IMG/VR virus record: IMGVR_UViG_3300020395_000117
Coordinates: 1 to 22,854 of that record
From: a virus
Direction: 5' to 3' (one strand)
DNA length: 22,854 bases
Below are positions 1,466 to 22,845 of this stretch, piece by piece; position 1 is the first letter of the stretch, and each line of letters starts with the position of its first letter. The translations under genes and the position numbers were made by a program. The notes beneath the pieces were generated by a model that was not told the DNA's origin, did no database searches, and saw nothing but the letters and a program-made list of their open reading frames with translations.

Positions 1466-1472
1466 TATTTAG
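1466..1472 (-). promoter_or_regulatory. Candidate T4-type late promoter (CTAAATA) before the chaperone-like gene
   Basis: CTAAATA lies 23 nt upstream of the ATG at 1443 and overlaps the end of the 1,283-residue gene. T4 late promoters are a lone -10-like TATAAATA, and I recall the shorter CTAAATA form for marine T4-like phages. A start of transcription about ten nt downstream would leave a short leader carrying the AAGGGA ribosome site. A seven-base AT-rich motif can occur by chance, so this rests on position as much as on sequence. Confidence 0.45.
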
Positions 1473-5323: not shown

Positions 5324-6817
5324 TCAAATCTTAATTAGGTATTCTAATATAATAAAAGGTGCTGTCACATTATCTACAGATTTTGATTCATCTACACTTA
5401 ATTGCAATGTAGTATTAAGTAAGTCTGCTGGAAGTTCAGTTGAATCAGTTTTTAATTCATACGTATGATCTTCTTTAACTATATTTAATTTATGATAATG
5501 CTCAGTTGGGTCTTCACCACCAGTATATAGTGCTTCAGTTTGCTCAAAAGTATTAGTTGTAGAAGGATATCCCACCGAACCAGCTTGTTGGTGAGCATCA
5601 TTCGTTTGTAAAGGCACTGAGTCAGCCCAACTTAAACTCATCCAGTCAATAGGAACACCAGTTGCTCCTGCACGATACATTGATTCTACATCCTGATCAC
5701 TACCATATGTACCCCCACCAGGAAAATTACATAAACCTAAGTTCCACAATCTTGACTCTGACGTTGGTATGCTACTACTATCACCAGTTACTGTATATGG
5801 TGGTGTTTTAATAGGATATTGTTCCCATGCTCTAGTAGTACTACCATTACCAGCAGTAGATACACCCTTATCATTTAAATATGATTCTGGTGGCAATAAA
5901 CAATAATATGCCCATAATTCAGTCAAGTTACTGTTATCATTAATACAAGAATAACCATAACTTGTTGGGTTCCAAGTACCTGCAAAAGCACCCTCCTTAC
6001 CTTGCCCAGGTGGTTTTTTTGCAAGTTGGTTTGACGCTATTGCTTTACATGGTTGTTGAGCATTACCAGGATAAAGATTACCACTAGTAGGAAGTGAAGT
6101 AGCGACAATCCACTCATGTAAAGGAATAGTAGAAGCATTCCTCAATCCTACTGGACCTGATTGTGTAGGTGGTTTTACTGTATTAGGACTATTCTCATCA
6201 ACCTCACCTCTTGATTTTAATCTAGTTCTAGTGCCACTATGAAAATGCATGTGACCATGTAACTGAGATGAGTCCACTGCCTCAATCTCAGTCCTTCTAC
6301 CATCAGTTGTGCCAACAGTCCATGCTGGTCTACCCCTCATTGGTATAATAGTTGATGGTATGATAAAATTACCAGTATATTCAACAGTGATCACATTATC
6401 AACAGCACCAATAGCATCAGCATCTATTCCAATACCAGAGCGACTCTTCTCAACACCAGACTCTGTTACAATTCTTATATTTGTATATGTTCCACCACCA
6501 CCCCTAGAACCAGTTGGTTTAGGACATTTAGATCCTAGATCTGGCACTGCAAACTGTTCATCACTTATTGTCTGAAGTGGTTCATTAGCAATATTTTTTC
6601 TAACAAACTTACCACCAGTTCCTGTACCACATACAGCAGCAAGTTGTGGGTAATCTACAGCATTATATACAGTACCATCACAACGTAAATAACCTGCTGG
6701 TAAATCTCTTTTAGATGAACTAGAGGTAATAGTATTATCTACTTCTATTGGCCATACTATAATTTGACCAGTTATGTTACCATACTTCCCTCTTTCTTTT
6801 GAATAGATAGTTGCCAT
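5324..6817 (-). CDS. Phage tail collar domain protein, 497 aa, with HxHxHxH motif
   Basis: The N-terminal region carries the collar signature: GQIIVWP (17-23), LPAGYLRCDGTVYNAVDYPQL (39-59) and FAVPDLGSKCP (89-99). A run of alternating histidines, H187, H189, H191 and H193, and another pair, H440/H442, are candidate metal ligands like those in T4 gp12 and gp37 tips. The protein ends ILEYLIKI, matching the Y[LI]IK ends of its two neighbours. The ATG shares one base with the previous stop (TAATG), and AAGG lies about eight nt upstream, so coupled translation is likely. A CTAAATA motif at 6876-6882 could give an extra late transcript. Cysteines are more frequent (C46, C63, C98, C257, C291, C306, C363) than in the adjacent collar proteins. 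Probably a paralogue of the 559- and 1,283-residue proteins and a virion adhesin or short fibre. Confidence 0.94.
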   Translation of the reverse strand: MATIYSKERGKYGNITGQIIVWPIEVDNTITSSSSKRDLPAGYLRCDGTVYNAVDYPQLAAVCGTGTGGKFVRKNIANEPLQTISDEQFAVPDLGSKCPKPTGSRGGGGTYTNIRIVTESGVEKSRSGIGIDADAIGAVDNVITVEYTGNFIIPSTIIPMRGRPAWTVGTTDGRRTEIEAVDSSQLHGHMHFHSGTRTRLKSRGEVDENSPNTVKPPTQSGPVGLRNASTIPLHEWIVATSLPTSGNLYPGNAQQPCKAIASNQLAKKPPGQGKEGAFAGTWNPTSYGYSCINDNSNLTELWAYYCLLPPESYLNDKGVSTAGNGSTTRAWEQYPIKTPPYTVTGDSSSIPTSESRLWNLGLCNFPGGGTYGSDQDVESMYRAGATGVPIDWMSLSWADSVPLQTNDAHQQAGSVGYPSTTNTFEQTEALYTGGEDPTEHYHKLNIVKEDHTYELKTDSTELPADLLNTTLQLSVDESKSVDNVTAPFIILEYLIKI

Positions 6818-8496
6818 TAGTATGCCTTAATAATGTACACACATGCCATTGCTGGCTGAGAGGTAGTTACTATAATATTTAGTGCATTTTCTTCGCTTTG
6901 TGGTACTACATTACCTAAACTTACATTACTAATAGCAAATGTTGGAGTTGGTTTCAAAGACCCAACAGACATTTGTATATCAAAAGTACCATGATTATGC
7001 GATCCAAATGTAGTATCATTAGGATTTAAAGATCCAATAGTATTCAATGTACTTGGCCAAGTACCATCTTTAAATGTTAAAGTTGCATCTGGTTGTCCAG
7101 TAGCATCACTACGTGTTTGTTTACTTAAGTAAATCGTATACTCATAACTAGCAAGATCAGTTCCTGTTCTACTAATTCTAGTAATATGTGTACCTGGTGT
7201 AATAGTTGCACCTTCAACTAATCTATATGGACGTATTTTATCTTCAATATAATATGTGTCACTACCTTCAGTCTTAGTTGTTCTAATATCTGTACCCTGT
7301 GGTAATATAATAAATGATTCTTGGGGAGTAACAGTTACATTATTAACAACAAAATGAGTAAGAGGATCCTCTGGATTATCAGGAATTTGATTTAAAGTTG
7401 CTCCTGTATCATTACCAAAATAGTTTCTTCTATTATTTTGACTCTGTGGTCTAGGATGCATTCCACTCCATGCAGGATGATAATGTAATGTTTTATCAGT
7501 GGTTGTTGGATCATTATCAAATGGTGAATACGTAAATGTATTTGTAGCTACACCAGTCATAGGCTTAACCACATCTTGTGTAGAAGCTCCCATACTATTT
7601 CTAGTTGCTGTTCCATCATGCCAAGATGGTGCTGGAACTGCTGACCAATAATCTTTTCCAGGATCATTTAAGAACTCATGGAACCCACTCATAGTTGGTA
7701 TTGTATGTTCATGTTGGGTATCACCATAATATGAAATAAATGTAGCACCATCCCTCCATGAAGGATATGCTCCATCTCCAGTAGCAATACTACACGTATT
7801 ATTTCTTGATTTAACTATATTAGAACATCTTCCACTTGAATGAGGATCAACACCACCCATAGAAACAGCAGCAGTATCAAATACTTGAGGACCAGTGAAA
7901 TTTGCCCTTGCATTTTGAAATGTACTTCTATGACTATGTGCTGGTATATGGTTTATACCTAATTTCCTACTAATTGTACTAACAGAAGTAAAGAAGTCTG
8001 GATCACTAATTGTTTGACCTGTAAACTTACCAGTTAAAAGAATTTGTGGATTGTTAAAAGTGAAATCAATATCTGCATATGCATTATGTGATATCTTAAC
8101 AGCATCAGGTCCAAAATCATTTGCTATATCATCACCAGTACCATCACCTACAGAATCACCAACAACTGATAGTGCATCAGCCTGACCGAATTGATACCTT
8201 GCATCACTAAGATAGTTCTTTTCTAAATCAACTAGTCCTTTATTAGCAACATCAGGTAATTGAAATTGTCCTGTGAAATTAGGAAATTCTCCATCCAAAT
8301 CACCACCATATGTCTTACCAATTTCAGATGCTAGTAAAGGATAATCTATTCCATCTTTCAGTCCACCATCAGCAACTATCCACCCTTTTGGTAAGTTTGC
8401 AACAGTGAACCCTTCGTTACCATCACCACCCCACGGCATTATTGTGCCGATACGAGCAGACTTCATGGTTTTAATTGAACTGTAGTATTGTGCCAT
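6817..8496 (-). CDS. Phage tail collar domain protein (short-tail-fibre-like), 559 aa
   Basis: Residues about 14-90 match the phage tail collar domain: IGTIMPWGG, then LPKGWIVADGG, YPLLASEIGKTYGG and FQLPDV. This domain is known from T4 gp12 and many fibre tips. Four HxH pairs follow, at H187/H189, H262/H264, H338/H340 and H500/H502. In T4 gp12 and gp37 such pairs bind metal in the trimer tip. Residues 429-467 resemble a small beta unit (TPGTHITRI...YTIYLS). The C-terminus is VYIIKAY, close to the ends of the next two genes. The start lies six nt after the giant gene's stop, and only a weak AAAGAAAT precedes the ATG, so translation may depend on coupling. Probable role: trimeric receptor-binding or baseplate-attached fibre. 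The collar assignment is confident; receptor and particle position are unknown. Confidence 0.95.
   Translation of the reverse strand: MAQYYSSIKTMKSARIGTIMPWGGDGNEGFTVANLPKGWIVADGGLKDGIDYPLLASEIGKTYGGDLDGEFPNFTGQFQLPDVANKGLVDLEKNYLSDARYQFGQADALSVVGDSVGDGTGDDIANDFGPDAVKISHNAYADIDFTFNNPQILLTGKFTGQTISDPDFFTSVSTISRKLGINHIPAHSHRSTFQNARANFTGPQVFDTAAVSMGGVDPHSSGRCSNIVKSRNNTCSIATGDGAYPSWRDGATFISYYGDTQHEHTIPTMSGFHEFLNDPGKDYWSAVPAPSWHDGTATRNSMGASTQDVVKPMTGVATNTFTYSPFDNDPTTTDKTLHYHPAWSGMHPRPQSQNNRRNYFGNDTGATLNQIPDNPEDPLTHFVVNNVTVTPQESFIILPQGTDIRTTKTEGSDTYYIEDKIRPYRLVEGATITPGTHITRISRTGTDLASYEYTIYLSKQTRSDATGQPDATLTFKDGTWPSTLNTIGSLNPNDTTFGSHNHGTFDIQMSVGSLKPTPTFAISNVSLGNVVPQSEENALNIIVTTSQPAMACVYIIKAY
6876..6882 (-). 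promoter_or_regulatory. Possible late promoter (CTAAATA) inside the end of the 559-aa gene
   Basis: CTAAATA occurs 59 nt upstream of the ATG at 6817, within codons for an Ala-Leu-Asn-Ile run. The spacing would allow a separate late transcript for the 497-residue collar gene. It sits wholly in coding sequence of an AT-rich genome, so chance occurrence is quite possible. Confidence 0.22.
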
Positions 8497-8502
8497 ATTT
8501 CT

Positions 8503-8895
8503 TTATAGTTCTGTTAACCACCATCCACGTAAGTTAGATGGAACTGTAGACGCATTTGGATCACCAGCAGCATCTGTTGCACCGACATATATTAAACCAA
8601 ATGATGCGTTTCTTGTTTGAACAACAAGTTCACCACTATCCCAAGCAGTTTGCATCTGACCAGCACCAGCTTGAATCTTAGTACCAGTAGTATCACCTTG
8701 AATTGCAACTGGAACATTAGCAACCTTAAGTGCTCTCAATACTAGACTTGTATTGTATGTTAGATTTCCACTAACCTCAACAAATCTAATCATATCACCT
8801 GTTTCTGCTGTCTCTGGAAGATACATGACAATGTTTGAACCAGAAGAAGTGTTGATCAAGTAATTATTATTTGGTTGTAATGGATTTGCTTGTGT
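8503..8895 (-). other. C-terminal tip-like domain of the giant protein
   Basis: Residues about 4651-4780 begin NNNYLINTSSGSNIVMYLP and pass through TGDMIRFVEVSGN, then LVVQT, FGLIYVG and RGWWLTEL. The pattern (start in Y.[IV].[TN], LP....GD.[IV].[FV].D/E.[SA], ending in GW) recurs at the ends of phage tail and head fibre proteins. Placement as a distal tip is inferred. Confidence 0.5.
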
Positions 8896-11800
8896 CTGAC
8901 CTATTCCAGTAAGTGACTGCTCAACATATGTATATCTACGACCACCGTTTCTAGTGAAGTAACGATTGATTCCAAACGCATCAATTGAACAATCTTGATA
9001 CATGATCCAATCTTTAGGACCAGTTAAACTACCTTGAGCAGCACCTAAATTATCAATATGGAAGATTGGATCTTGTGAGTTTCCAGTTGTATTAACCTTA
9101 CCTTTAATGTAAAGTTTCTCACCCATGTCAACAGAACCAGTACCACCATATACTTGGAATAAAGTTTGGTTAGCACATGTACCATTAGTCTGACAACTCT
9201 CAAAGATAACCTTAAGGTCACCACCAATCATTGCCCCACCATTGACATACATTCCCATCACACCAGTCTTCTCGTCTCTAACTGATCCATCACCATAGTG
9301 ATCATCATCGTTAGCTACGTTGAATACTAGAGTCTTACCATCAGAACCATACATTCTGAGGTTACCACCAATCATTTCCATATGATCGTGGACTGTTAAC
9401 TTACCACCACCAAAGTATCTTGTATGTGTTCCACTTGCAAGGAAATTGCCATTAGCATCAAGTCTAGTAGACTTGGACATCCTTACACCATATACATTAT
9501 CAGCATTACCATCAATACTATCAGGATAGAACCACTCAAATGCTCCACCAGTTTCAAACTTAACGAACTGTAAGTAGTCTAATTTATCAGATATTATATT
9601 AGAATCAAGAAGTCTAACTCTGATCTTATTAGCATTAAGGTTAGGTGACTCAACAGCAGTTCTGTTTCCAGCAGCACCAATTGGATCAACAAGTGTTGTT
9701 GTAAACTCATCCTTACTAATCTTAACAACTTGTGATCCAGAATCAAATGCTTGTACAGCAGTTCCTTCTGCTCCTCTACCACCTGTAGGATATGTTCCAG
9801 CTGGATATCCAGAATTGTAAATCGTGGGTAATGTTACATTACCTTGTGCATCAGTTTCAGGATCATCAGTTATAATGAATAGTTCTATCTTACTATCACC
9901 ATCAATCATGGCAACTAGATCACCCTTCTCAAATGCATCTCCATTAGAAGCAATAGGGATATTCCATGTTCCTGTAGTAACACCACTGGATAATGTTGTG
10001 ATAGGACCTGCAGCCTGTAAAGTAAATGGATCAAATGTATACGCTGTAACTACTGTTGTGCTATCATGAGCAATACCAGTAGATCCATAGTATTGACCAA
10101 CCATGAATACAGTACCAACCTTAGTACCAATAGTTGTGTCACCATTACAGATGTTTATATCAAATGTAGTTGATTCAGAATTTTGTATTGTAAACTTACT
10201 ATCAAGAGCAGTATTAGCACTTGGATAAACCTCATTTGTACTACCACACTTACCTTTCAGAAGTACTGATCCATTGATAGTTGTTTGTGTGGTATTATTA
10301 CCAATAATGACATCTCCTGTTACAGAGTCTACTTCAAATACTGTCTCCTCATTACCTTCACCACAATTATTTTTGACGGATAATTTTTTAGCAACCGCTT
10401 CAATAACAGTATCTAATTTAAATATCTCACCTTCATCATCAACACCATCATTAGCAGGTGTACCATCTTCACGTGAAATAATTATATAATCATCAACATC
10501 AAGACCACCACCAAACTGTGCAAGTTTAATTGTCTTGGTTCCAGCAGATGCATCAATATCTTCTGTTAACCATGTAGAATCATACTGTACAATACACTTG
10601 TATACACTAGTTGTATCTAAATGTGTTGAAGATGTTGTAGTAAATGTTCCAAATGGTTGCCTACTAACAGTAACATAATATGGACTGTCGTTTGATACTA
10701 TTTTTGGAAGAGCAACAATCTTAACAAATTCTGCATGACCTGATCCACTCTCAGGACTATCAATCAATAGAATATCATTCTCACTGAAGTACTGATCTCC
10801 ATCAGGATTAGCAACACTAATATTATGGAAAGGACTATACTTAAGTGGTAAGTAGAATTGTCCAGTAGGTAGGTCAGGTAAACTTGCCTGTGGAATTTGT
10901 TGACTCCATGTTGCGTCACCCCATCCTCCACTACCACCTGTGTCAATCCTGTTATAAGCAGTCTTCATGCCAGCAGGATCTTGTGCAGGTGCAGTAACTC
11001 TTAGTACATCAATAATATCTACATTCTTATTAAATGTAGTAGTAGTAATGATACCATTAGTATGAGCAAGCATTGTTGTTGAACCTGCTTGCTTTCTACT
11101 TGCAGTGAAGGAGAAGTTATTTAATCCACCACATAAAGTAATATCACTATTGACTCTCAATGTGGAATCAATAACAGTATTATTTCTAATCTTGGTAGTA
11201 CCACCCTGACCAGCAATTGTTAACTGTGATGCGTTAGTAGCAAAGTCAACGATTGTTGTTGCACTATTATCTCCTAAGAAAGATACCTTCTCAGCAGTAG
11301 ATCTAATGAATGTTGTATCACCAGCACCTCGTCTAGTAATGTTAGATCCATCAAATCTATTCTTGACCTGACCAAGTAAAACATCACCAGCAATCTTAAA
11401 CTCTTTGTTATTAACTTGTGTATAAGAATCTGTCTCTGTACTTAAGAATGCACCACCAATGGATATCCTAGAGATATGTGCATTGGTTCCATCACCAGCA
11501 GCAGTAGAACCTACATCAATCCAACTCTTCTTAGAGTTACCACCGATCTTAGTCTCTTGTTCATCTGCTGCTTCGTTACCAATTTCAATATTTGCAGCAT
11601 AACCAGCCATCTTAAGACCTTTAGTGCCACCAATATTTGAGGCATATAGATCATGAGCACCATAGAAACCAGAATCCATCAAGAACTCAAAGGTTCCATC
11701 AGTAATAGAAGTTCTAATCTCAGCAGTGTTATTAGGACCAGGTCCACCACCATTTACATCAATGTCTTGTTCAAACTTAACATCATCAGTAAATCTACCA

Positions 11801-14800
11801 TCACCATTAACAGTAAGTGTTCTATCTAATTGTGTTGCTGCTGTCTTATCATCAGATACATTAATACCAACACGATTAGTCTGAGCATTTATACGGAAGA
11901 TAGCAGAATTATCTGGTGTATTAGGAGTATAAGTACCAACTAAGAATGCATTATCTAAACCAGCAAATGTACCAGTTGCATAGAAAGTTTCAAAACCACC
12001 AATGATAGCACTACCATGAACATCAAGGTTTGCTTGTGGTGTTGTTGTGTTATTAACAAAACCAGTCTTCCATGCTTCAGTACCACCTGATCTTGCAGTT
12101 GTGTTGATACCAACCTTATAATTGGATAGAACAGAAGTTTCTGTTCTAATTGCTTCACTACCAAGTACGCCCCACTCCTTCCAAGAAGTGTCAGCATATT
12201 CCATAACAGCAGTAGGTTCAGAGTTCCAAAGAATTGGACTTGCAACAACATTTGCTCCAATTATAATCTTAATATAATCATTACTATCATTAAATGTATT
12301 AGGATCAATGTCAAATACACCATTCAATGTTTGTTCACTACAATCCTTAATTCTAATCTTAGTTGCAGCAGTGATCTTAGGACTAAAGGCATCATTCTGT
12401 TTAGAATTCTTCCAGTTAATCTTGACTAGATTACTACCATCAAATTCAACATTAAATACTTGATCAGGATTAGAAGCAGTTTGATCTCCTAGTGTGAAGT
12501 AAGAGTTAGCATAGATCCAACCGATAGAACCAGATGCACCAATACTATCACCCTTAAGAAGTATATCGCCAGGTACGGGTGAAGCACCATTAGTACCATA
12601 ACGTACTATCTGAGTAGAATCAAAGTATTCCTTACTATCAGCACTTTGTGAAGGTGATATATTTGAACCTTCTGCTCCAACAACATGGTTCTGAATCTTA
12701 TAACCTTGTGCAAATCCACCAGAACCACGTGGGTTAAACTGGAATACAGAAGCAGCAATCATGTTCTTATTAAGAACAATATCACCATTAGTTAATGTAT
12801 TACCTTGCTGTGACGATCTATCAAGTGACTCATCATCTCCAACTGGAGTTGCATTTGGATTAACAGATGATAGAATAGTTAGAGAATTTAAACCTAAACC
12901 ACTAGCAACATTAACTGTTACTGGTGAGTTAAATGTATTAACTAACTTACCTTCATCACCACCATTGACTGTAATATTCTGGTTGAATGTTACAGGAGTA
13001 TCAAATGTAGTAACAAGACTATCAATGATATCGTCTGGATCTTCAGAGTCAACTAATGTTGCAGACTCTAAGAATACTTCCTCACCAGTGATAGCATCAA
13101 TCTTACGGTTACCAATGTATAGGTCACCATTTGAGTTAAGACCAGTGTAGAATACTAAACCACCGTCTTGCTTCTTAGACTGTGAGTAGAAGTCTTGAGT
13201 TGTAGTAAGAAGTACTTCTTGTCTAGCAGGTAAACCAGTTGAGTAGTTACCTGGACCAAAACCAAGGTATTCAAACGTATGGTTACCAGCACGTGCTATG
13301 GATGGTCTTCTAAGTTCAACATATAGTCTCTGATCAACAACAACTGTGTTATCACCAGCAATAGGAATCTGACGATCTTCAGATCCTGATGCAGCATTAC
13401 CAGACTGTGCTTCAATGGGTTTAACATTATATGTGTTATTAGCAAGAGAATCAGTTGCTATGATATCAAATATAGTTTCCTTAGTAATAGATCCCTTGAA
13501 ATCATTAACAGTAACTAAACCATGAACATAGTTATCAGCAGCAGAGTATGTTGCTGGTGGATCAACGAAGTTAGAATCTAACTGCTTGAACCATACTGGA
13601 TCATTCTTATAGTTTAATGGATATAACTTACTGATTGGCTGAGAGAACTTGAAATTCCTGAAGTTATTCAGATTACCAGCACCTGTTGGATATGGAGAAA
13701 CATCACCACGTACAGCAGTTAGATAGAAGATACCATCTTGCTGTTCAAAGATACGTCTTTGAATTGTTTCAACATTAAAGATATAGAATGTATCATCAAT
13801 TTCACCAACATCATTTACAGATGCGATGTAATATTCATTACCTGCTTGGTCAGTAATCTCATCACCTGGTGTTAGAGTATAAACATTGGCAGAATTTTGC
13901 TTATAGTAATACTCTGGATAACCTTTCTTAATAAGTGTCTTAAGTGCAAGAGACTTACCACCATCAGGATCTGCAAGTTGATCAGCAAATACTACAGTGC
14001 TTGCCTGAGTCTGTGTAAATCTAGTATCTTCAGTAGAACTATAATCTAATGTTCCAGAGATACCTTTAAGAATCAAATGCCATGTATCTGTGCCAGGTAC
14101 ATTAAGAGCAGCATGAATATAACCACTACCCTTATCAGCACCATCCCACTCAACCTTAGTATCCTGGAAATAACCATTAACAGGATTAGCAGAATTGGTA
14201 GTAAATGTGCCACCTTGAGGTGCAGTAATCTTAACAGTAGTTAGATTCTCATTCTTAAGTCCAGGAACTTGAGTATCAATCTCATGGTCAAATATTGTCA
14301 ATTCAAGTAGTTCATCACCACTTACAGCATCAACAAAATATCTACCAGATTGAATAGTTGCTTGAATCTTAGAATCAGTTCTAATATATGCCTGATATTC
14401 TTTACCAGCACCTGATAAATCTTTCTTAAATGGATCATATCTCTTAGATGGATCAAGAGCATTTTGATTTCCACTAGGAGTAGCAAACGATCCTAGACCA
14501 GTAAATTTCATACCAATGATCTCATTGGCCTGACCACTATCAGCAGTATTATTAAAGATTGCCTTTGTTACACTGTTACCAGATTTTGGCTTAAGTACGA
14601 TTTTTTGTGGAAGAAGTTTTCTAGTTTCATCCTTCCTCATCTTAATTGTGAATCCATTTAGAGGATCACGAACAGACTTGAGGTAACTAGGAATTACATA
14701 ACGTAAACGATAGATACGATCATCAGCACTTCTATCATCTTTCAGACGAGTATACCAAGTATCATTACTCTTAGTATTACCAGATGCATCGTTATACTCA

Positions 14801-17800
14801 ACATCATGAAGTCTTGCAAGAATCTCTTGAGATGTTGATGGTGCTCCACTTGAATTAGGTTCAACTTGTAAGAACCACTTACCTTTATCTGCTACATTTG
14901 AATTAGTAAAGGATGGATCATAACGCATTGGTGATATACGCTTATTAGCGAATACATCAAAACCAATGTCATTATTAGTTACTAAATCAATAGCATTTGT
15001 GTCATTTATTGAATCAGTATGAGTTCTATAGATTTTAAATACTTTAGGTGTAATATACCTAGCATAAAATTCTACATCACCTCTCAACTTACCTAAATCT
15101 ACACCAGATTGATATGCAACTGCACCATCAGCAGCATCAGTTCCACCAACTGTAGGTAGACTCTTACCAGCTTGTGCTCTAAAGAATACTGGATGACCTT
15201 CAGGTACATTTGCTTTTGGTAAATCAAAGATGTTAGATACATCTGTTTGAATACCATTACTTACTAATGTACACTCATACTGATGTAAATCATAACTATC
15301 ATCAATAGTAAATTGATATAGATCAATTTCAATATCTGGATGAATACCACTAACTTCTTGAGAGTGTAAGTAAATACCAGCAGCAGCATTTTCTTTACTA
15401 CTTGCAAGCATTAATACATCTTGCTCAATACCATTGAATGATGTTGTAGCAGAGAAATCTTGTGGATTTGTTTCTCTACCTGGAGCAATTACATAGTACT
15501 CTTGGTTAGTATTAAATCCATTAGGTAATCTTACATTACGCTTATCAACTGTAACACCAGCCTTAGGTCTTGGAACCAATCTTACTGGAGTACCAGTCTC
15601 AAATCTATGAGGATCAGATTGATTAGCAGGTGCCTTAGATGGATCTGTTAATGTCCAAATAGTTGCCCTTCTTGAAAGTGCAGAAGATGAAGTAGGTTCA
15701 TTTCTAGTGACACTTCCTAATCCAGACTGTATAATAGTACCAATGTTGGTGAAGTACTGACGTACAGCAGTTGCTTCATTAGCACACTGTGGATAATTTG
15801 TATCCTTTCTAGCATCATTAGAAGGATCACTATTAAAGGAAGAAGATATATCTGGTTTCTTAGTTGTGTAGATACCATTATCTGCTATACCACCAGTTAT
15901 TGGCCAAGCAAACCATAGATATGAATCAGTAGTTGTTGAATTAGCATTAACAGAATTACCTAATACCAAACCAAGAGGAATATCATTCTTCTCAACAGTA
16001 TCCAAATATCCAACAGTCTTAATAGTATTGGTAAGAATACTAAACAATGTAGTTACTGTTGAAGCAACCTCTTGACAAGGACCATTTGAGATATTTCTTG
16101 ATATAGAATCAAGAGCACTACCATTGGCAACAGTAGTTGTGACTATATCAAATAATGTATTAATGGTAGATTTAATATTATCACACTTACCACCAGCTAC
16201 TGTCTTGATTATTCCACCAATAGTAAGATTTGCTGTAGAACTAACAAATGTATGAGGATTAACATTAGTAGAAGGTACTGAATCTAAAACCTGAACGCTA
16301 ATTGTAGTTCCAGTTACAGCAGTAATAGTAGGAGCTGTTATTGCTGCTGGATCAGTTGCTCTAGGATAATACTTAGTTCCAGAACCAAGAGTACAAGTGA
16401 ATCCTAATGATCCTACAGGAATGTCAACCGATTCTCCTACTTGATAAGTATGAGTACCAACTTCCAATTCCATAATACCTGTTGTTGGATCATAGCTAGC
16501 ACCACTAACAGATGCTTTAGATCCAACCAAACTTTCAGGTGTATTAATTGCATTCTTAACAATATCATATAATGTATTAATTGAAGATACAACATTCACA
16601 CACTTACTTGAAGACTCAGTACGATCAATACTATACAATGAAGATGGAGAAGCAATAGCATTAGTTAAGATACCAACAAGTGTAGTAACAGTTGCCTTTG
16701 CATCATCACAATCACCATTAGCAACACCATTTGTAATTGATGTGTCAGTTGCTTGAGTTAATGATGTATAACCACCAACTGTAACTGCTTCATTAACGAT
16801 TACCTGTCTGATAATATCACGTACAGCATTGAAACCAAAGATTGTTTCATTCTCATGTCCATCTGCATGTCCACCAGAATTGTATAGTAATGCAGTATCC
16901 CATACACGATCATTACCACCATATGCTAAGTTATGTGCTACAACATCTACTACATCTTTAAGATCATCAAGACAATCATCAGTAGTATATCCTTGTGCAG
17001 GGACATAGTTAGAATACTGTGATAGCATCCTTCCCAGAGCAATTTCTGCCACGAAATTTTTATTGGAAGTTATCAAATTAGCAGCATCAATTACCTTATT
17101 GTTAACTGGAACTGAAGGATCAGTAGTACCAGTATAGAATGTCTGAGTCTTACCATGTGTTCCACCAATAAGAACCTTATCATTCTTTACTACTTGAACC
17201 ATCAACTCTTTGGCATCTTCAAATGCTTTTAGAGTTTGTGCTTCTTCACCAACAACATGAGCACCAGTAACGTACAAGTTTGACATATCCCAAACTCTGT
17301 CATTACCACCAAATCCTACGTTATGTGCAATTTCAACAACGAAGTCCTTGATGTCATCCTTACAATCTTGTGGGTTACCAGTTGGAGGTGTGAAGTCTGG
17401 GAACTCAAGAATCATTCTATGATATGCTTCAGCAGCAATCAAATCTGCATTTGCAATCAATAGATTATATGCATCACCATTCTTATTATCAGTAGATGTT
17501 GGAGTATCTTCAGTAATTGTGGTATCATATGTCTGAGCAATATGATGTGATCCAACTTGTAATACCTTCTGGTTCTTAATAACCTGACCAGCCATCTCCT
17601 TGGCATGACGGAAGACTTCATTAGTCTCTTTCTCCTCACCACCAACAAGTATCTGTGTGGTTCCTGGTACAAATTGATGGACACCAGCAGTAACATCATT
17701 AGCAGGACCAACATTAACTGTAATTGTTGTACCAGCTACAGATTTAATAGAAGGATCATAAGTTGCAATTGGATCAGTTACACGAGGATATGAATGCTCG

Positions 17801-20800
17801 GTATCATAGTTATCCTTCTCACACTTAAATGTTAATGCACCTAAAGGAATATGAACTCTCTCACCAACTTTATGTGTATGAGCACCTATATCTAATGTTA
17901 AATTACCATCAGCAGGAGTATATGTAGCAGCATTAACTGTTTTCTTAAATCCAGCAACGTGAGCACCAGTCTTGTATGAGTATGCAGCATCCCATGTCTT
18001 ATCGTTACCACCGTATGCTACGTTATCTGCAATTGCTTCAAGTAGATCTACAACATCATCAACACAATCTTGATCATGATAGTTTCTATTACCAGCAACA
18101 GAGAATACTTTATGTACTGAGTTAGGTTCAGTTGTAGTCCAGTAATGACTGTAATTACCACCACTAACTACAGCACCAGTAGCAATTCCATTACCAGGTG
18201 CAGCCCATGTATGAGCATAACGATCTGCTGAAGCAGCAACACCAACATTAACTGTGATAGTACCAGACTGTCTTGCTATACCACCTGTCAATCCTCTCTT
18301 AAATGTATGAGCAGATTGTGGTTTATGCTCAACACAAAGAGTTGTATTAGGTTGTGAAGCAGCCCATGTATGTGTAGACTGTGGTACATATTCAACAGCA
18401 CCAGTTATAGCACTATCCCATGTATGAATATAATCATCACCACCTGTAACAGAACCAGCAACACCACTACCAGCTACAAATTCATGAGCAGTTACGTTAG
18501 TAGAAGGAACTGTATCAAGAACCTGTATAGTGACAGTAGTTGCTGTGACTGCTTGAATACTTAATGACTTGCCACTGATAGGATCAGAAGCACGTGGATA
18601 TGAATGTGGAGTAGCTTTATTATCTTCTTCACACTTAAACTGCATTGCACCATCAGCAATTCTGATTCTATCGCTAGTAGTTAAAGTATGTGAACCAATA
18701 TCTAATACAAGAAGACCAGTAGTAGGATCATATGTTGTTGCATCTCCAGGAGTATGTGTGCTAATATCACTCTGTCCAACATTAACTGTAATTACACCTG
18801 TTTGCTTTCTAATACCATTAGCAACAAAAGCAGTAGGATCTGCTGTATGTGTAGAAAGGTTAGAAGACTTACCAACATTAACAGTGAAATCATTTGCAGT
18901 CTTAGATCTAATCTGCAACCATCTTCCACTTGGATAATCAAATCCAGTACGAGGATATGTTTTAGCAGCAGCACTAGGATCTAGATCACATGTAAATGCT
19001 AATGAGTTATCTACAATTTGAATATAATCACCACCAGAGGTTACACCACCAGTTACAGCACCTGCAACTGTATGTACATACTGTCCAAGACCAGTAGCAA
19101 CACCAACATTAACATCAAATGTACTTTGCTGTGCGTTACTAACAACTAGGTTCTTACCACTCGCAGGGTCAGTTGCTCTTGGATATGAATATGCTTGAGT
19201 ATCACTATCCTTAGTACATGTAAATGATATTGCACCATCCTTAATTCTAATATACTCACCATTCTGTAAACCGTGGTTAGGAATATTAAGTGTTAGTATG
19301 CCAGTTGCAGGATCGTATGCAGTTAGACTTCCAGCAGCAGTTAATGGTGTAAACTCTTGAGGTCCATCAAATTGATGACCATTAGATGTAATTGTTAGGT
19401 CACCAGTGGTAGGATTATAGATTGCACCTGTAGCAGTCTTTTCAATATAACCTACAGAATCAATATCAATTGACTTACCTGCTTTAGGGTCAACACCAGG
19501 ACGAGGATAACTCTCTACTCCACCACCAGGCTTATCACATGTAAACTTAAGTGAATTATCTTTTAATACAATGTTAGAACCAACAGAAAGACCATGCTGA
19601 CCAATGTTAAGATCTAAATTACCTGTCTTAGGATTGTAACTACCAGTAGAAGGTGTGTAATACTTATTATCACCAGCATTACCTACATTAACTGTAACAG
19701 TAGTATCTGTCTTGTTAACAATAGGAAGTGATCTGGAAGATGCATTATCCTTATTTGTACGAGGATATGTCTTAACAGAATCATTACCATCCATTGTACA
19801 TGTAAATGCCAATGAATTATCCTTAATGAGGATTCCATCTCCAACCTTTAGATCATGACCACCAATAGTAAGAGTTAATTCTCCACTAGAAGCATCATAA
19901 GAACCATTGGTAGGAGTATATGCATGATCTCCACCAGCAGCACCTACATTAACTTTAAATGTATGAACTTCAACATCAGATACAGTCAACCACTCACCAC
20001 TTGCAGGATCACCTGATCTTGGATATGAATGCTCTGTAGCATTGTTATCCATTGCACAAGTAAAGACTAATGAACCATCAGCGATTCTTACTTTGTTACC
20101 TTCAGCAAATCCATGATTAGGTACAGTTAGTTTAATGATACCAGTTGCAGGATCATACTCTGCATCTGTTGCCTTATGGAAAGAAGATCCAACCTTTGTG
20201 ATTTCAATTGACTTATCAGCATAAGGATCAACACCAGCACGAGGATATGTTTCAGTCGCAGTGAAGTTATCTTTAGAACACTTAAAGCTTAATGAATTAT
20301 TTGGAATCTTAATACTTGTTCCTACCTTAAGATTATGAGATCCAATGTCAAGTGTAAGATCACCTGTATTTGGATTGTAATCAGCAGTTGAAACATCATG
20401 ACTAACATTTAATGTCTTACCAACATTGATTGTAACTTCATCAGCAGTTGTTGCACCAATAGGTAACACAGCATATCCAGCAGGGTCACCAATACGAGGA
20501 TATGTGTGCTGACTAGCACGACCATCCATATCACACTCAAATGTGAATGCGTTATAATCAAATCTTAAACTATCTGCTGCTCTCTTTAATCCACCACCAG
20601 TAGAACCTTGGAATGTATGTACATAATCACCACCAGTAATTACAGCACCAACACCAGCTGCTAAATTAGGAACAAATGTATGAGCATACTGATTAGCAAC
20701 ATCAGCATCAAATCCAACATTAATTGTGATTGTAGTTGTAGTTACAGAATCAATATTAATTGCTGTATCATAGAATGGGTCTGATGATCTTGGATAAACA

Positions 20801-22845
20801 TGATTAGTCTGATTATTATCCTTGGTACAAGTAAATGTTAATGACTCGTTAGCAAGTTTAATAGCAGTACCAGCACTCAATCCATGATTACCAATTGTCA
20901 AGGTCATTACACCTGTTGCTGCATTATAATCAGCAGCAGTTGGTGTGAATGATTTTGTTTCAGACTTACCTACATTAACCTTAAAAGTATTATTAGAAGG
21001 ATCAGATTCAAATATAGTTAACCACTTACCACTAACAGGATCACTTGCTCTTGGGTATTGCTTATTACCAGCACCCATTGAACAAGTAAATGTTAATGAG
21101 TCATCATCAAACTTAACTCTTTCTCCATTAGCAAAGTCATGACCAGTAACAACTACTGTCATCACACCTGTTTGTGGATTGTAGTTAGCACTAGCTACAG
21201 TATAAGAATCAGCACCAATTAAACCATGCTGATCAATAGTAAGTGTAAGATCACCTGTTGTAGCATTATATACTGCACCTGTAGGTGTGAACCTTTCTGT
21301 AGATGATTCACGAATCATTCTCTCAACAGATTCATGTGCAATTAAACTCTTGTTAGCAAGAATTAAATTACGTGCATCACCATTCTTATCATTAACAACC
21401 TCTGCTGGTTCTGATGTGATAGGATCATTAGCAGTTGTAGCAGACTGTGTTAGACCATGTGTACCATAAATGAATACATTCTCCTTACGCATGACTTGAA
21501 TAGCCATGTCTTTACAGTAATTAAATGCAGTAATGGTCTCGTCTTTCTTCGCTGCTAAATCTTGTACAGCACCACTATCATAATAGTATGCAGCATCCCA
21601 TGTCTTATCATTACCACCATAACCTGTATTTTCTGCAACTGCTTCAATCGCTTTACCTAAATCATAAAGGCATTTTACTTTACTCTGAGCAAGAGTATAT
21701 CCTGTAGAAGGAGTATAGTTAGGGAAGTCAAGAAGCATTCTTTCATATGCTTCATTTGCAATGAAATCTTTATTAGCAAGAATCAACTCTCTTGCATTAC
21801 CATGACGATCAGATGCTACTTGCTTAACACTAGTTGTTGCTCTCTGACCAAGTTCAACTGTTGTAGCATCAACAATACGCTTAACAAATGTATTGTCAGG
21901 AACAACAGGTTGTGCTGGTCTAGTTGCACCAGTCTTCAAATAATTAGTCTGATTGCCCTGTGCATCTTCAAACTCACTAGGAGCATAGTCAGCAACAGTC
22001 ATACCTGGAACAATACCACTACTATCACCAACCTTGATGATAGAATTACCAGCAGTTGTTTCTACTCCAGTACGCTTGTATGTGTAGTTACGTAGAGCAG
22101 CAATTGCTAAATCTCTAGCATAGTAGTAACCTTCTAAAGTCTCAGGAAGTTCATTGTTAATGAAACTTAGATTATCAGTACCACCAGATTTTACGTAATA
22201 GGACTCAGCAGCCTGAATAGTGTTAATATTTCCACCAAGTCGTAAGTCTGCAATAGTAGCGTCAAGTAAGTAACCAATATCCCTACGACACTTAACAATT
22301 TGAATGCTCTGCTTGACAAGGAGTGCTGGATACTTTGCAGTAATGTAACCGTATGCTTCATATGCAATAAATTCTTTGTTTGCTTCAATTAAATTAGCAG
22401 CATCCTGTGCTTTATTATTAACTTGAGCAGCATTAGGATTAAGTATATCTGGTGTAGCAACATACTTCTTAAATCCATTCGGTGTTAAAGTTGCATGGAA
22501 CTCACTGTTTCCTCCAGTAGTTCTTGGTGTCAACTTAACATATAATTTTTCGTCAGACTTTGCACCAATACGATAACCACCTATAGTAGCAGCAGGTCTA
22601 GATGTTGGAACATAAGCATTATCATCACCAAGATATAGTTTGGTATGGTTTGCTTGATCATTAGATGCCTGAATGTCAATAGTATAGTAAGATTGTCTCT
22701 TAGTATTTCCTACTTCTTGAACTTTCTTTGGTGGAATAATGGCATCAATATATCCACCCTTATCTTGGTTAAAGGAATATCCCTTATGACCAATAGCATG
22801 TAAGGATGTATTACCAAAGTTACTGTTAGAGTTGGTGATACTCAT
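8503..22845 (-). CDS. Giant multi-repeat phage virion/fibre-like structural protein, 4,780 aa
   Basis: One uninterrupted frame. The ATG at 22845 is preceded by GGTGGTGAT, a Shine-Dalgarno-like stretch, but the frame stays open to the window edge, so an earlier start cannot be excluded. Layout by residue: 1-139 N-terminal region starting MSITNSNSNFGN; 140-265 and 343-480 helical repeats A1 and A2, separated by a small segment (271-335) with a GMTV...TFVKRI...TTVEL pattern; 481-518 start of A3; 519-1585 ten beta-type B repeats; 1586-1637 middle of A3; 1638-1736 B11; 1737-2039 end of A3, then A4 and A5; 2040-2287 C repeats with B12 at 2113-2211; 2354-2382 C5; 2383-4650 long beta-rich region; about 4651-4780 tip-like domain ending RGWWLTEL. 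I see no enzyme motif, signal peptide or membrane segment. It heads the fibre operon, six nt before the next gene, so a tail-fibre or other virion appendage is inferred. Virion role is fairly sure; the exact position in the particle is unknown. Confidence 0.93.
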   Translation of the reverse strand: MSITNSNSNFGNTSLHAIGHKGYSFNQDKGGYIDAIIPPKKVQEVGNTKRQSYYTIDIQASNDQANHTKLYLGDDNAYVPTSRPAATIGGYRIGAKSDEKLYVKLTPRTTGGNSEFHATLTPNGFKKYVATPDILNPNAAQVNNKAQDAANLIEANKEFIAYEAYGYITAKYPALLVKQSIQIVKCRRDIGYLLDATIADLRLGGNINTIQAAESYYVKSGGTDNLSFINNELPETLEGYYYARDLAIAALRNYTYKRTGVETTAGNSIIKVGDSSGIVPGMTVADYAPSEFEDAQGNQTNYLKTGATRPAQPVVPDNTFVKRIVDATTVELGQRATTSVKQVASDRHGNARELILANKDFIANEAYERMLLDFPNYTPSTGYTLAQSKVKCLYDLGKAIEAVAENTGYGGNDKTWDAAYYYDSGAVQDLAAKKDETITAFNYCKDMAIQVMRKENVFIYGTHGLTQSATTANDPITSEPAEVVNDKNGDARNLILANKSLIAHESVERMIRESSTERFTPTGAVYNATTGDLTLTIDQHGLIGADSYTVASANYNPQTGVMTVVVTGHDFANGERVKFDDDSLTFTCSMGAGNKQYPRASDPVSGKWLTIFESDPSNNTFKVNVGKSETKSFTPTAADYNAATGVMTLTIGNHGLSAGTAIKLANESLTFTCTKDNNQTNHVYPRSSDPFYDTAINIDSVTTTTITINVGFDADVANQYAHTFVPNLAAGVGAVITGGDYVHTFQGSTGGGLKRAADSLRFDYNAFTFECDMDGRASQHTYPRIGDPAGYAVLPIGATTADEVTINVGKTLNVSHDVSTADYNPNTGDLTLDIGSHNLKVGTSIKIPNNSLSFKCSKDNFTATETYPRAGVDPYADKSIEITKVGSSFHKATDAEYDPATGIIKLTVPNHGFAEGNKVRIADGSLVFTCAMDNNATEHSYPRSGDPASGEWLTVSDVEVHTFKVNVGAAGGDHAYTPTNGSYDASSGELTLTIGGHDLKVGDGILIKDNSLAFTCTMDGNDSVKTYPRTNKDNASSRSLPIVNKTDTTVTVNVGNAGDNKYYTPSTGSYNPKTGNLDLNIGQHGLSVGSNIVLKDNSLKFTCDKPGGGVESYPRPGVDPKAGKSIDIDSVGYIEKTATGAIYNPTTGDLTITSNGHQFDGPQEFTPLTAAGSLTAYDPATGILTLNIPNHGLQNGEYIRIKDGAISFTCTKDSDTQAYSYPRATDPASGKNLVVSNAQQSTFDVNVGVATGLGQYVHTVAGAVTGGVTSGGDYIQIVDNSLAFTCDLDPSAAAKTYPRTGFDYPSGRWLQIRSKTANDFTVNVGKSSNLSTHTADPTAFVANGIRKQTGVITVNVGQSDISTHTPGDATTYDPTTGLLVLDIGSHTLTTSDRIRIADGAMQFKCEEDNKATPHSYPRASDPISGKSLSIQAVTATTVTIQVLDTVPSTNVTAHEFVAGSGVAGSVTGGDDYIHTWDSAITGAVEYVPQSTHTWAASQPNTTLCVEHKPQSAHTFKRGLTGGIARQSGTITVNVGVAASADRYAHTWAAPGNGIATGAVVSGGNYSHYWTTTEPNSVHKVFSVAGNRNYHDQDCVDDVVDLLEAIADNVAYGGNDKTWDAAYSYKTGAHVAGFKKTVNAATYTPADGNLTLDIGAHTHKVGERVHIPLGALTFKCEKDNYDTEHSYPRVTDPIATYDPSIKSVAGTTITVNVGPANDVTAGVHQFVPGTTQILVGGEEKETNEVFRHAKEMAGQVIKNQKVLQVGSHHIAQTYDTTITEDTPTSTDNKNGDAYNLLIANADLIAAEAYHRMILEFPDFTPPTGNPQDCKDDIKDFVVEIAHNVGFGGNDRVWDMSNLYVTGAHVVGEEAQTLKAFEDAKELMVQVVKNDKVLIGGTHGKTQTFYTGTTDPSVPVNNKVIDAANLITSNKNFVAEIALGRMLSQYSNYVPAQGYTTDDCLDDLKDVVDVVAHNLAYGGNDRVWDTALLYNSGGHADGHENETIFGFNAVRDIIRQVIVNEAVTVGGYTSLTQATDTSITNGVANGDCDDAKATVTTLVGILTNAIASPSSLYSIDRTESSSKCVNVVSSINTLYDIVKNAINTPESLVGSKASVSGASYDPTTGIMELEVGTHTYQVGESVDIPVGSLGFTCTLGSGTKYYPRATDPAAITAPTITAVTGTTISVQVLDSVPSTNVNPHTFVSSTANLTIGGIIKTVAGGKCDNIKSTINTLFDIVTTTVANGSALDSISRNISNGPCQEVASTVTTLFSILTNTIKTVGYLDTVEKNDIPLGLVLGNSVNANSTTTDSYLWFAWPITGGIADNGIYTTKKPDISSSFNSDPSNDARKDTNYPQCANEATAVRQYFTNIGTIIQSGLGSVTRNEPTSSSALSRRATIWTLTDPSKAPANQSDPHRFETGTPVRLVPRPKAGVTVDKRNVRLPNGFNTNQEYYVIAPGRETNPQDFSATTSFNGIEQDVLMLASSKENAAAGIYLHSQEVSGIHPDIEIDLYQFTIDDSYDLHQYECTLVSNGIQTDVSNIFDLPKANVPEGHPVFFRAQAGKSLPTVGGTDAADGAVAYQSGVDLGKLRGDVEFYARYITPKVFKIYRTHTDSINDTNAIDLVTNNDIGFDVFANKRISPMRYDPSFTNSNVADKGKWFLQVEPNSSGAPSTSQEILARLHDVEYNDASGNTKSNDTWYTRLKDDRSADDRIYRLRYVIPSYLKSVRDPLNGFTIKMRKDETRKLLPQKIVLKPKSGNSVTKAIFNNTADSGQANEIIGMKFTGLGSFATPSGNQNALDPSKRYDPFKKDLSGAGKEYQAYIRTDSKIQATIQSGRYFVDAVSGDELLELTIFDHEIDTQVPGLKNENLTTVKITAPQGGTFTTNSANPVNGYFQDTKVEWDGADKGSGYIHAALNVPGTDTWHLILKGISGTLDYSSTEDTRFTQTQASTVVFADQLADPDGGKSLALKTLIKKGYPEYYYKQNSANVYTLTPGDEITDQAGNEYYIASVNDVGEIDDTFYIFNVETIQRRIFEQQDGIFYLTAVRGDVSPYPTGAGNLNNFRNFKFSQPISKLYPLNYKNDPVWFKQLDSNFVDPPATYSAADNYVHGLVTVNDFKGSITKETIFDIIATDSLANNTYNVKPIEAQSGNAASGSEDRQIPIAGDNTVVVDQRLYVELRRPSIARAGNHTFEYLGFGPGNYSTGLPARQEVLLTTTQDFYSQSKKQDGGLVFYTGLNSNGDLYIGNRKIDAITGEEVFLESATLVDSEDPDDIIDSLVTTFDTPVTFNQNITVNGGDEGKLVNTFNSPVTVNVASGLGLNSLTILSSVNPNATPVGDDESLDRSSQQGNTLTNGDIVLNKNMIAASVFQFNPRGSGGFAQGYKIQNHVVGAEGSNISPSQSADSKEYFDSTQIVRYGTNGASPVPGDILLKGDSIGASGSIGWIYANSYFTLGDQTASNPDQVFNVEFDGSNLVKINWKNSKQNDAFSPKITAATKIRIKDCSEQTLNGVFDIDPNTFNDSNDYIKIIIGANVVASPILWNSEPTAVMEYADTSWKEWGVLGSEAIRTETSVLSNYKVGINTTARSGGTEAWKTGFVNNTTTPQANLDVHGSAIIGGFETFYATGTFAGLDNAFLVGTYTPNTPDNSAIFRINAQTNRVGINVSDDKTAATQLDRTLTVNGDGRFTDDVKFEQDIDVNGGGPGPNNTAEIRTSITDGTFEFLMDSGFYGAHDLYASNIGGTKGLKMAGYAANIEIGNEAADEQETKIGGNSKKSWIDVGSTAAGDGTNAHISRISIGGAFLSTETDSYTQVNNKEFKIAGDVLLGQVKNRFDGSNITRRGAGDTTFIRSTAEKVSFLGDNSATTIVDFATNASQLTIAGQGGTTKIRNNTVIDSTLRVNSDITLCGGLNNFSFTASRKQAGSTTMLAHTNGIITTTTFNKNVDIIDVLRVTAPAQDPAGMKTAYNRIDTGGSGGWGDATWSQQIPQASLPDLPTGQFYLPLKYSPFHNISVANPDGDQYFSENDILLIDSPESGSGHAEFVKIVALPKIVSNDSPYYVTVSRQPFGTFTTTSSTHLDTTSVYKCIVQYDSTWLTEDIDASAGTKTIKLAQFGGGLDVDDYIIISREDGTPANDGVDDEGEIFKLDTVIEAVAKKLSVKNNCGEGNEETVFEVDSVTGDVIIGNNTTQTTINGSVLLKGKCGSTNEVYPSANTALDSKFTIQNSESTTFDINICNGDTTIGTKVGTVFMVGQYYGSTGIAHDSTTVVTAYTFDPFTLQAAGPITTLSSGVTTGTWNIPIASNGDAFEKGDLVAMIDGDSKIELFIITDDPETDAQGNVTLPTIYNSGYPAGTYPTGGRGAEGTAVQAFDSGSQVVKISKDEFTTTLVDPIGAAGNRTAVESPNLNANKIRVRLLDSNIISDKLDYLQFVKFETGGAFEWFYPDSIDGNADNVYGVRMSKSTRLDANGNFLASGTHTRYFGGGKLTVHDHMEMIGGNLRMYGSDGKTLVFNVANDDDHYGDGSVRDEKTGVMGMYVNGGAMIGGDLKVIFESCQTNGTCANQTLFQVYGGTGSVDMGEKLYIKGKVNTTGNSQDPIFHIDNLGAAQGSLTGPKDWIMYQDCSIDAFGINRYFTRNGGRRYTYVEQSLTGIGQTQANPLQPNNNYLINTSSGSNIVMYLPETAETGDMIRFVEVSGNLTYNTSLVLRALKVANVPVAIQGDTTGTKIQAGAGQMQTAWDSGELVVQTRNASFGLIYVGATDAAGDPNASTVPSNLRGWWLTEL
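11803..12114 (-). other. Two VGIN...LDVHG/LTVNG fibre motifs in the giant protein
   Basis: Residues 3578-3611 (VGINTT...ANLDVHG) and 3659-3681 (VGINVS...TLTVNG) resemble the VGIGTTxPxxxLDVNG motif common in phage fibres and other trimeric beta-fibrous proteins. They support a beta-fibrous rather than globular second half. Confidence 0.65.
15700..15786 (-). repeat. Probable fifth C repeat (C5)
   Basis: Residues 2354-2382 (C...TAVRQYFTNIGTII...LGSVTRN) fit the C pattern. They lie about 65 residues after C4, across a Ser/Thr/Asn-rich spacer. More divergent than C1-C4. Confidence 0.5.
15985..16212 (-). repeat. Short helical C repeats C3 and C4
   Basis: Residues 2212-2287. C3 starts at C2221 (CDNIKSTINTLFDIV) and C4 at C2257 (CQEVASTVTTLFSIL). 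Both share the LDSISRN or LDTVEKN ending. The C2 to C3 linker carries B12. Confidence 0.72.
16213..16509 (-). repeat. Single B repeat (B12) inserted between C2 and C3
   Basis: Residues 2113-2211, 99 long like B11. Its first half is closest to B11 (HTxxVGExVxIPxGxL), while its second half (VQVLDSVPSTNV..H.FV) is closest to B10. It ends LTIGG and is followed by the next helical C repeat. Confidence 0.85.
16510..16728 (-). repeat. Short helical C repeats C1 and C2
   Basis: Residues 2040-2112. The unit is about 35 residues: C, four to six residues, then VxxLxxILxNAIxSPxSLxxIxR. C1 starts at C2046 and C2 at C2082. They directly follow A5 and precede module B12. Confidence 0.72.
16729..17637 (-). 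repeat. End of helical repeat A3, then complete repeats A4 and A5
   Basis: Residues 1737-1786 complete A3 (ETNEVFRHAKEMAGQVIKN...GSHHIAQT). A4 is 1787-1914 and A5 1915-2039. Both have the full set of three segments, including FGGNDRVWD or YGGNDRVWD and the closing HGKTQ or TSLTQ. No B module interrupts either. Confidence 0.83.
17638..17934 (-). repeat. Single B repeat (B11) inserted in helical repeat A3
   Basis: Residues 1638-1736, 99 long, with the full B pattern: YTPADGNLTLDIG, LTFKC, SYPRVTDP and TTITVNVG. It ends ILVGG and is followed at once by the E-rich third segment of A3. Uninterrupted repeats A2, A4 and A5 have only a short loop here. Confidence 0.85.
17935..18090 (-). repeat. Middle segment of split helical repeat A3
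   Basis: Residues 1586-1637 contain the CxxDxxDLLEAIADNVAYGGNDKTWDAA signature and GAHVAG. They align with the middle of A2, A4 and A5, where they directly follow the first helical segment. Here the first segment is about 1,067 residues earlier. Confidence 0.82.
18091..21291 (-). repeat. Tandem array of ten beta-type B repeats (B1-B10), about 1,067 residues
   Basis: Each unit reads roughly YxPxTGxLTLxIGxHxLxxG, then IxIxxxSLxFTC, then YPRxxDP, then IxxVxxxTxTVNVG. YPR motifs fall at 21049, 20788, 20494, 20239, 20017, 19759, 19501, 19177, 18949 and 18592 (lowest base of each). Spacing is 74-119 residues, most often about 86. Nearly every copy keeps one cysteine, in FTC or FKC or FEC. Alternating hydrophobic strands suggest a beta-sandwich-like domain. 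Copies have drifted at DNA level, although the codons for NVGxx recur almost unchanged. The array sits inside helical repeat A3. Confidence 0.88.
21292..22428 (-). repeat. Helical A-type repeats A1, A2 and the first segment of A3 (giant protein)
   Basis: Residues 140-265 (A1), 343-480 (A2) and 481-518 (A3, first segment). The unit has three segments: AxNLIxANKxFIAxEAYxRM; then CxxDxxxxxxxxAxNxxYGGNDKTWDAAxxYxxG; then an ET..AF...K.MA.QVM.NE.V segment ending G.HGLTQ. A1 is the most divergent and lacks YGGND. A2 is complete and uninterrupted, so it gives the reference for seeing where A3 is split. The repeats are predicted helical from composition only; I know no named domain for them. Confidence 0.85.

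Follow-up and report, generated by a model that had tools for sequence, protein, structure and literature searches.

How can a repeat built of helices be interrupted twice by β domains, once by more than a thousand residues, and what kind of repeat is it? These questions arise from IMG/VR record IMGVR_UViG_3300020395_000117, of which we analysed positions 1-22,854 (22,854 bases; hereafter the window). A giant ORF on the minus strand (8503-22845) encodes 4,780 residues, counted from the first ATG in the window. That ATG, at position 22845, lies 9 nt short of where the contig ends. The giant ORFs of relatives have about 509 more residues upstream that are missing from the window; in the close relative L001, residue 534 of the frame aligns with residue 1 of the window frame. 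The gene is therefore cut by the contig end, with the N-terminus of the protein lying off the contig.

Searches with phmmer, using repeat A2 or A4 as the query, found five A repeats in the giant ORF, four of them whole and the third, A3, in three ordered pieces. The fifth to be recognized, A1 (residues 144-265, window 22051-22416, minus strand as are all features below; phmmer match 147-254), carries the motif KCRRDIGY and is more divergent than the others. Repeats A2 (343-480; 21406-21819; also modelled with AlphaFold), A4 (1786-1915; 17101-17490) and A5 (1916-2040; 16726-17100) are uninterrupted, as the original prediction had it. The A3 pieces matched at residues 483-522, 1590-1634 and 1732-1780, with conditional E-values of 8e-7 to 2e-13 (query A4). 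Their boundaries, set by alignment to the uninterrupted third repeats of relatives (L048, and L007 for the second insert), place segment 1, with helices A and B, at residues 483-512 (21310-21399), segment 2, with the motif QDCVDD..YGGNDKTWD and helices E and F, at 1592-1631 (17953-18072), and segment 3, with helix G, at 1736-1778 (17512-17640), within a few residues of the predicted 481-518, 1586-1637 and 1737 onwards. The loop-1 insert of about 1,079 residues (513-1591; 18073-21309) holds ten matches to the B unit, eight near-complete and two truncated, together with two fragments, and the loop-2 insert of 104 residues (1632-1735; 17641-17952) holds one, which bears out the predicted tally of ten B units in the first loop and one in the second. 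Neither L007 nor L048 has an insert in loop 2, and alignment to L007 puts that of the window exactly between GAHVA and GEE.

The B units are β domains of about 80-100 residues with a shared motif, Y..G..H..C..YPR.D (window 16279-21195), that includes an invariant cysteine. They are not restricted to A3: a twelfth unit (2113-2189; 16279-16509) lies after A5 among short helical C repeats, and in L055 and L016 B units are also found between repeats. The proposal that β domains are inserted at loops of a helical scaffold thus stands, whereas their confinement to the loops of A repeats does not. The C-type repeats (C..V.S.I.TL..I; window 15946-16728, residues 2040-2300), among which that B unit is inserted, have a counterpart in S-RSM4, where the C motif precedes the KCRRDIGY helices, so that C may replace helices A and B of a divergent A repeat. 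The largest B arrays seen, 26 units spanning about 2,500 residues, occupy loop 1 of the same repeat as A3 in L037-L042 and L079. Two identities for the B fold were considered and not accepted. A profile match to iota-carbonic anhydrase (1e-4) covered only 37 columns, and a Foldseek match of a model containing one B unit to the tailspike β domains of phi92 endosialidase and endoNF (about 107 columns, rmsd 3.1) was weak, with the matched region not resolved, making it a mere lead.

The original prediction had called for insertions to be mapped loop by loop across relatives, and this mapping revealed both filled and empty states, in cultured phages as well. In the third repeat both loops are empty in L048 and L057, and only loop 2 is empty in L007. 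Loop 1 is filled by about 840-1,360 residues in 27 of 39 five-repeat arrays and is empty in the other 12. One order fixed in all relatives, with no A repeat free of inserts, had been named as the observation that would speak against the proposal; given the relatives with an intact third repeat, this objection falls. Pieces 2 and 3 of A3 score best against the third repeats of the uninserted L057 and L048 (piece 1 is less decisive), from which we conclude that one and the same repeat exists in an inserted and an uninserted form. On an unrooted tree built from the other four repeats, where a change of state may be gain or loss alike, loop 1 switches state on one occasion and loop 2 on three or more. 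Cultured phages differ in loop 2 of another repeat, where S-RSM4 and S-WAM2 have no insert, Sf-CH1b has one B unit and ACG-2014j two; both states, filled and empty, recur in uncultured relatives whose A parts are about 76% identical. An artefact of assembly, with repetitive B units joined wrongly into A3, might be suspected in a metagenomic contig with so many similar repeats; but the loop-1 insert recurs in 27 of 39 arrays on separate contigs, the reading frames are continuous and the loop-2 form is present in isolates, leaving this explanation hardly credible.

An AlphaFold model of a homologous repeat with one B unit in loop 2 gave the expected order of three helices (9-35, 47-67, 71-82), a β domain (strands between 91 and 192) and a last helix (200-221). 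Its confidence is medium (pLDDT 76.2, pTM 0.55; block means 81-89), and it bears directly on loop 2 alone. The A3 pieces probably pack together around the 1,079-residue insert.

What the original prediction missed, though its scaffold reading was right in kind, is the identity of the helical repeat, which is phycobiliprotein-like. Of 63 diverse repeats, 37 matched Pfam Phycobilisome (PF00502; best 2.3e-6), and no other family was matched by more than a single repeat; against the whole A region of the window PF00502 scored 36.7 bits (E 5.1e-9), above the curated cut-off of 22.2, and against single window repeats 14.7-16.4 bits, below it. Run against the PDB with an E limit of 10, a profile of the 63 repeats gave 171 matches, led by phycocyanin 6jpr_B (7.6e-7), and the best 60 of the 171 were all phycobiliproteins or their close kin. 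The profile was needed for this result, as the single A2 sequence retrieved no phycobiliprotein from the PDB and only the repetitive chain FD15. Searches were specific in both directions: all 162 matches of the phage profile to cyanobacterial ORFs at E<=1e-3 were phycobiliproteins (next best 0.3), and all 105 domains found in phage ORFs by a phycobiliprotein profile overlapped A repeats. HHalign paired the two families at 96.3% (E 1.4e-9), over only 66 columns, versus 0.3% (E 0.21) for the reversed control. The AlphaFold model of A2 (pLDDT 88.1, pTM 0.83) agrees, with phycobiliproteins filling 49 of the best 50 Foldseek rows against the PDB and a globin domain the remaining one (query TM 0.44-0.75; probabilities mostly 0.9-1, E-values weak at 0.04-0.4).

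The two families share globin-like helices, an NKxxDAxN start and, in helix E, Cys84-x-x-Asp87, a register described further below. In the PDB profile search the matched part of phycobiliproteins starts near residue 35, and the A2 model opens with helix A; by both measures the N-terminal X-Y helices, which serve alpha-beta pairing, are absent from the phage repeats. Further differences from phycobiliproteins (phycocyanin, phycoerythrin, allophycocyanin) are that the phage repeats stand in tandem in a giant virion protein, have mostly lost Arg86 and bind a bilin only putatively. Loop 1 of A3 corresponds to the B-E loop of phycobiliproteins, and loop 2 to the connection of their helices F and G. 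The core-membrane linker ApcE (LCM) likewise has a phycobiliprotein domain in a large multidomain protein, with a PB-loop insert in the B-E region. The PB-loop is short, however, whereas the phage site is filled by 8-26 B domains, and the phage protein is viral.

Convergence or a bias towards helices could in principle mimic descent, and low identity (about 20%), helical composition and non-significant Foldseek E-values would allow it. Against this, the reversed-profile control fails, the reciprocal searches are specific both ways, the same Cys-x-x-Asp occurs in register and the repeats are restricted to phages of cyanobacteria, so we regard convergence as very improbable. From the profile, reciprocal and HHalign results, the fold, the Cys/Asp register and the cyanophage restriction, homology is very likely; the A repeats descend from, or closely resemble, cyanobacterial light-harvesting phycobiliproteins.

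The restriction is strict in the records searched. With A1 as the query, 401 of 50,697 phage records matched at E up to 0.05, each a cyanophage or an unnamed marine virus, and A repeats occurred in 27 of 27 cyanophage records, Prochlorococcus phages included. Direct homologues with A and often B repeats are the giant proteins of T4-like cyanophages (short tail fibre, T4-GC 734; gp7 baseplate wedge; phrog_4527, phrog_5342, phrog_701), which are annotated only as structural or hypothetical. In a literature search that took in few subscription papers we found no description of these proteins as relatives of phycobiliproteins or as hosts of nested insertions; the folds are known, and their recruitment into virion proteins, nested one within another, seems undescribed in the literature searched.

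The C-terminal half of the giant ORF matched phrog_4527, 'short tail fiber protein', with 1890.6 bits over residues 77-2480 of that half. The next gene downstream (6817-8496, minus strand; Pfam PF07484 and phrog_4591) encodes a collar-domain protein of the short tail fibre type, and the genes downstream of the giant ORF encode three collar-domain proteins in all, together with a tail-assembly chaperone, a gene set resembling the short-tail-fibre region of S-RSM4, S-WAM2 and S-PM2. The giant ORF thus combines C-terminal-half homology and collar-gene neighbourhood, the marks of the short-tail-fibre/baseplate class of giant proteins; on PHROG and isolate annotation, it would be a virion protein, and probably sits in the tail. 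At 1469-5320, the window also encodes a 1,283-residue collar-domain protein with a glycine-rich centre, possibly a further adhesin. In S-PM2 (AJ630128, L163:8557-13384), sixteen tRNAs are annotated within the giant CDS S-PM2p218; this annotation looks misplaced, as ARAGORN found none inside that CDS and nine upstream. In a coevolution study of S-PM2 and its host, late mutations arose in very large hypothetical proteins, ORF 218 with its A repeats included (PMC9910659), which is consistent with, without proving, a role in host contact.

Do the beads bind bilin? Across 380 distinct repeats the equivalent of the bilin-attaching Cys84 is kept, in register, in 97.4%, and that of the bilin-contacting Asp87, three residues on, in 99.2%; the cysteine column is the only one with more than 6% Cys. 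The Arg86 equivalent is kept in 28.9%, compared with invariance of all three residues in 31 cyanobacterial sequences, and the full C-x-R-D occurs in 110 of the 380, including most first repeats, which mostly read KCRRDIGY. In relatives with enough upstream sequence, the giant gene is closely preceded by one or two CpeT-like lyase genes, with a ferredoxin-dependent bilin reductase between CpeT-like genes in L049, L053, L055, L056, L066, L069 and L073, and a heme oxygenase upstream of the giant gene in L011, L013, L014 and L112; the heme oxygenase (Pfam 2e-70) occurs in some relatives within the window's own inserted clade. Examples of these heme oxygenase, bilin reductase and CpeT-like genes, on the same strand as the giant gene of these uncultured relatives, are at L013:3919-4632, L049:3085-3720, L053:1795-2430 and L001:345-809. 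Such genes suggest a link to bilin, one weakened by synteny: CpeT keeps a conserved position after gp5/lysozyme genes, so its adjacency to the giant gene may be plain synteny. Co-occurrence was likewise discounted as strong evidence for bilin, since CpeT is present in 22 of 27 cyanophage records against 27 of 27 for A repeats and occupies that position even in phages with distant A genes. The bilin reductase genes of isolates are not near A genes.

Two readings of the bead follow. In one, the A repeats are working biliproteins, carrying phage- or host-made bilin on the conserved cysteine with the aid of a CpeT-like lyase, and the outcome would be a tail fibre with pigment, or a step in folding or light sensing that depends on bilin; it differs from our preferred explanation only by the added bound bilin. 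The conserved Cys and Asp, the complete C-x-R-D in first repeats, the upstream bilin genes and the description of the roles of phage cpeT, pebS and pcyA as unresolved (PMC3037559) speak for it. T-type lyases, however, serve Cys153/155 and not Cys84 (PMC10452541; PMC2327270), Arg86 is lost in 71% of repeats, CpeT is far from any A gene in P-SSM4, P-HM1 and S-RIM8, A genes occur without CpeT in S-RIM14, S-BM3 and ACG-2014d, and the synteny noted above could account for adjacency. We therefore consider bound bilin unlikely, and equally so the pigmented, folding or light-sensing roles. In the other, the fold was borrowed as a pure helical spacer in which Cys and Asp play a structural part in helix E with no ligand. 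Loss of the pocket arginine from most repeats fits this, as does the presence of the repeats in Prochlorococcus phages though their hosts lack standard phycobilisomes; the B units also have an invariant Cys, so that a conserved Cys alone is no sign of bilin. It is harder to reconcile with retention, across very divergent repeats, of just the two bilin residues, at the only Cys-rich column, but we lean towards it.

Taken with or without bilin, the giant protein is in our view likely to belong to the short-tail-fibre/baseplate class and to form a fibre of the cyanophage virion, with beads homologous to phycobiliproteins and B domains in loops and linkers. Each A repeat would consist of the globin-like core alone (helices A, B, E, F and G), lacking the N-terminal X-Y pair, and would serve as one of the tandem beads of the fibre scaffold, with B domains inserted both in linkers and in surface loops of the bead (in A3, the B-E and F-G loops). 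The A3 bead would still fold because its conserved pieces meet in space while the B units project outwards, altering the length, bulk, reach or adhesive surface of the fibre. The protein may form the modular display architecture originally proposed, in which B units could contact the host or set reach. We speculate further that cyanophage tails might bear viral phycobiliproteins, as bilin-binding beads in tandem whose pigment is made and attached by the products of a phage gene cluster (heme oxygenase, bilin reductase, CpeT) and whose loops contain host-contact β domains, although we think this fuller scheme doubtful.

A light-harvesting fold appears to have been recruited as a virion building block across T4-like cyanophages, which are among the most abundant marine viruses, and to have escaped notice in proteins labelled, for instance, structural or hypothetical. 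Its loops offer a natural domain-insertion system, in which one bead occurs with empty and filled loops in close relatives, and which can help to learn how virion fibres gain modules. The A repeats are also candidate in-virion substrates, testable at the bench, for the phage bilin and lyase genes whose role has been left unresolved (PMC3037559). If true, bilin-binding tail beads would explain these long-puzzling genes and would imply pigmented or light-responsive virions.
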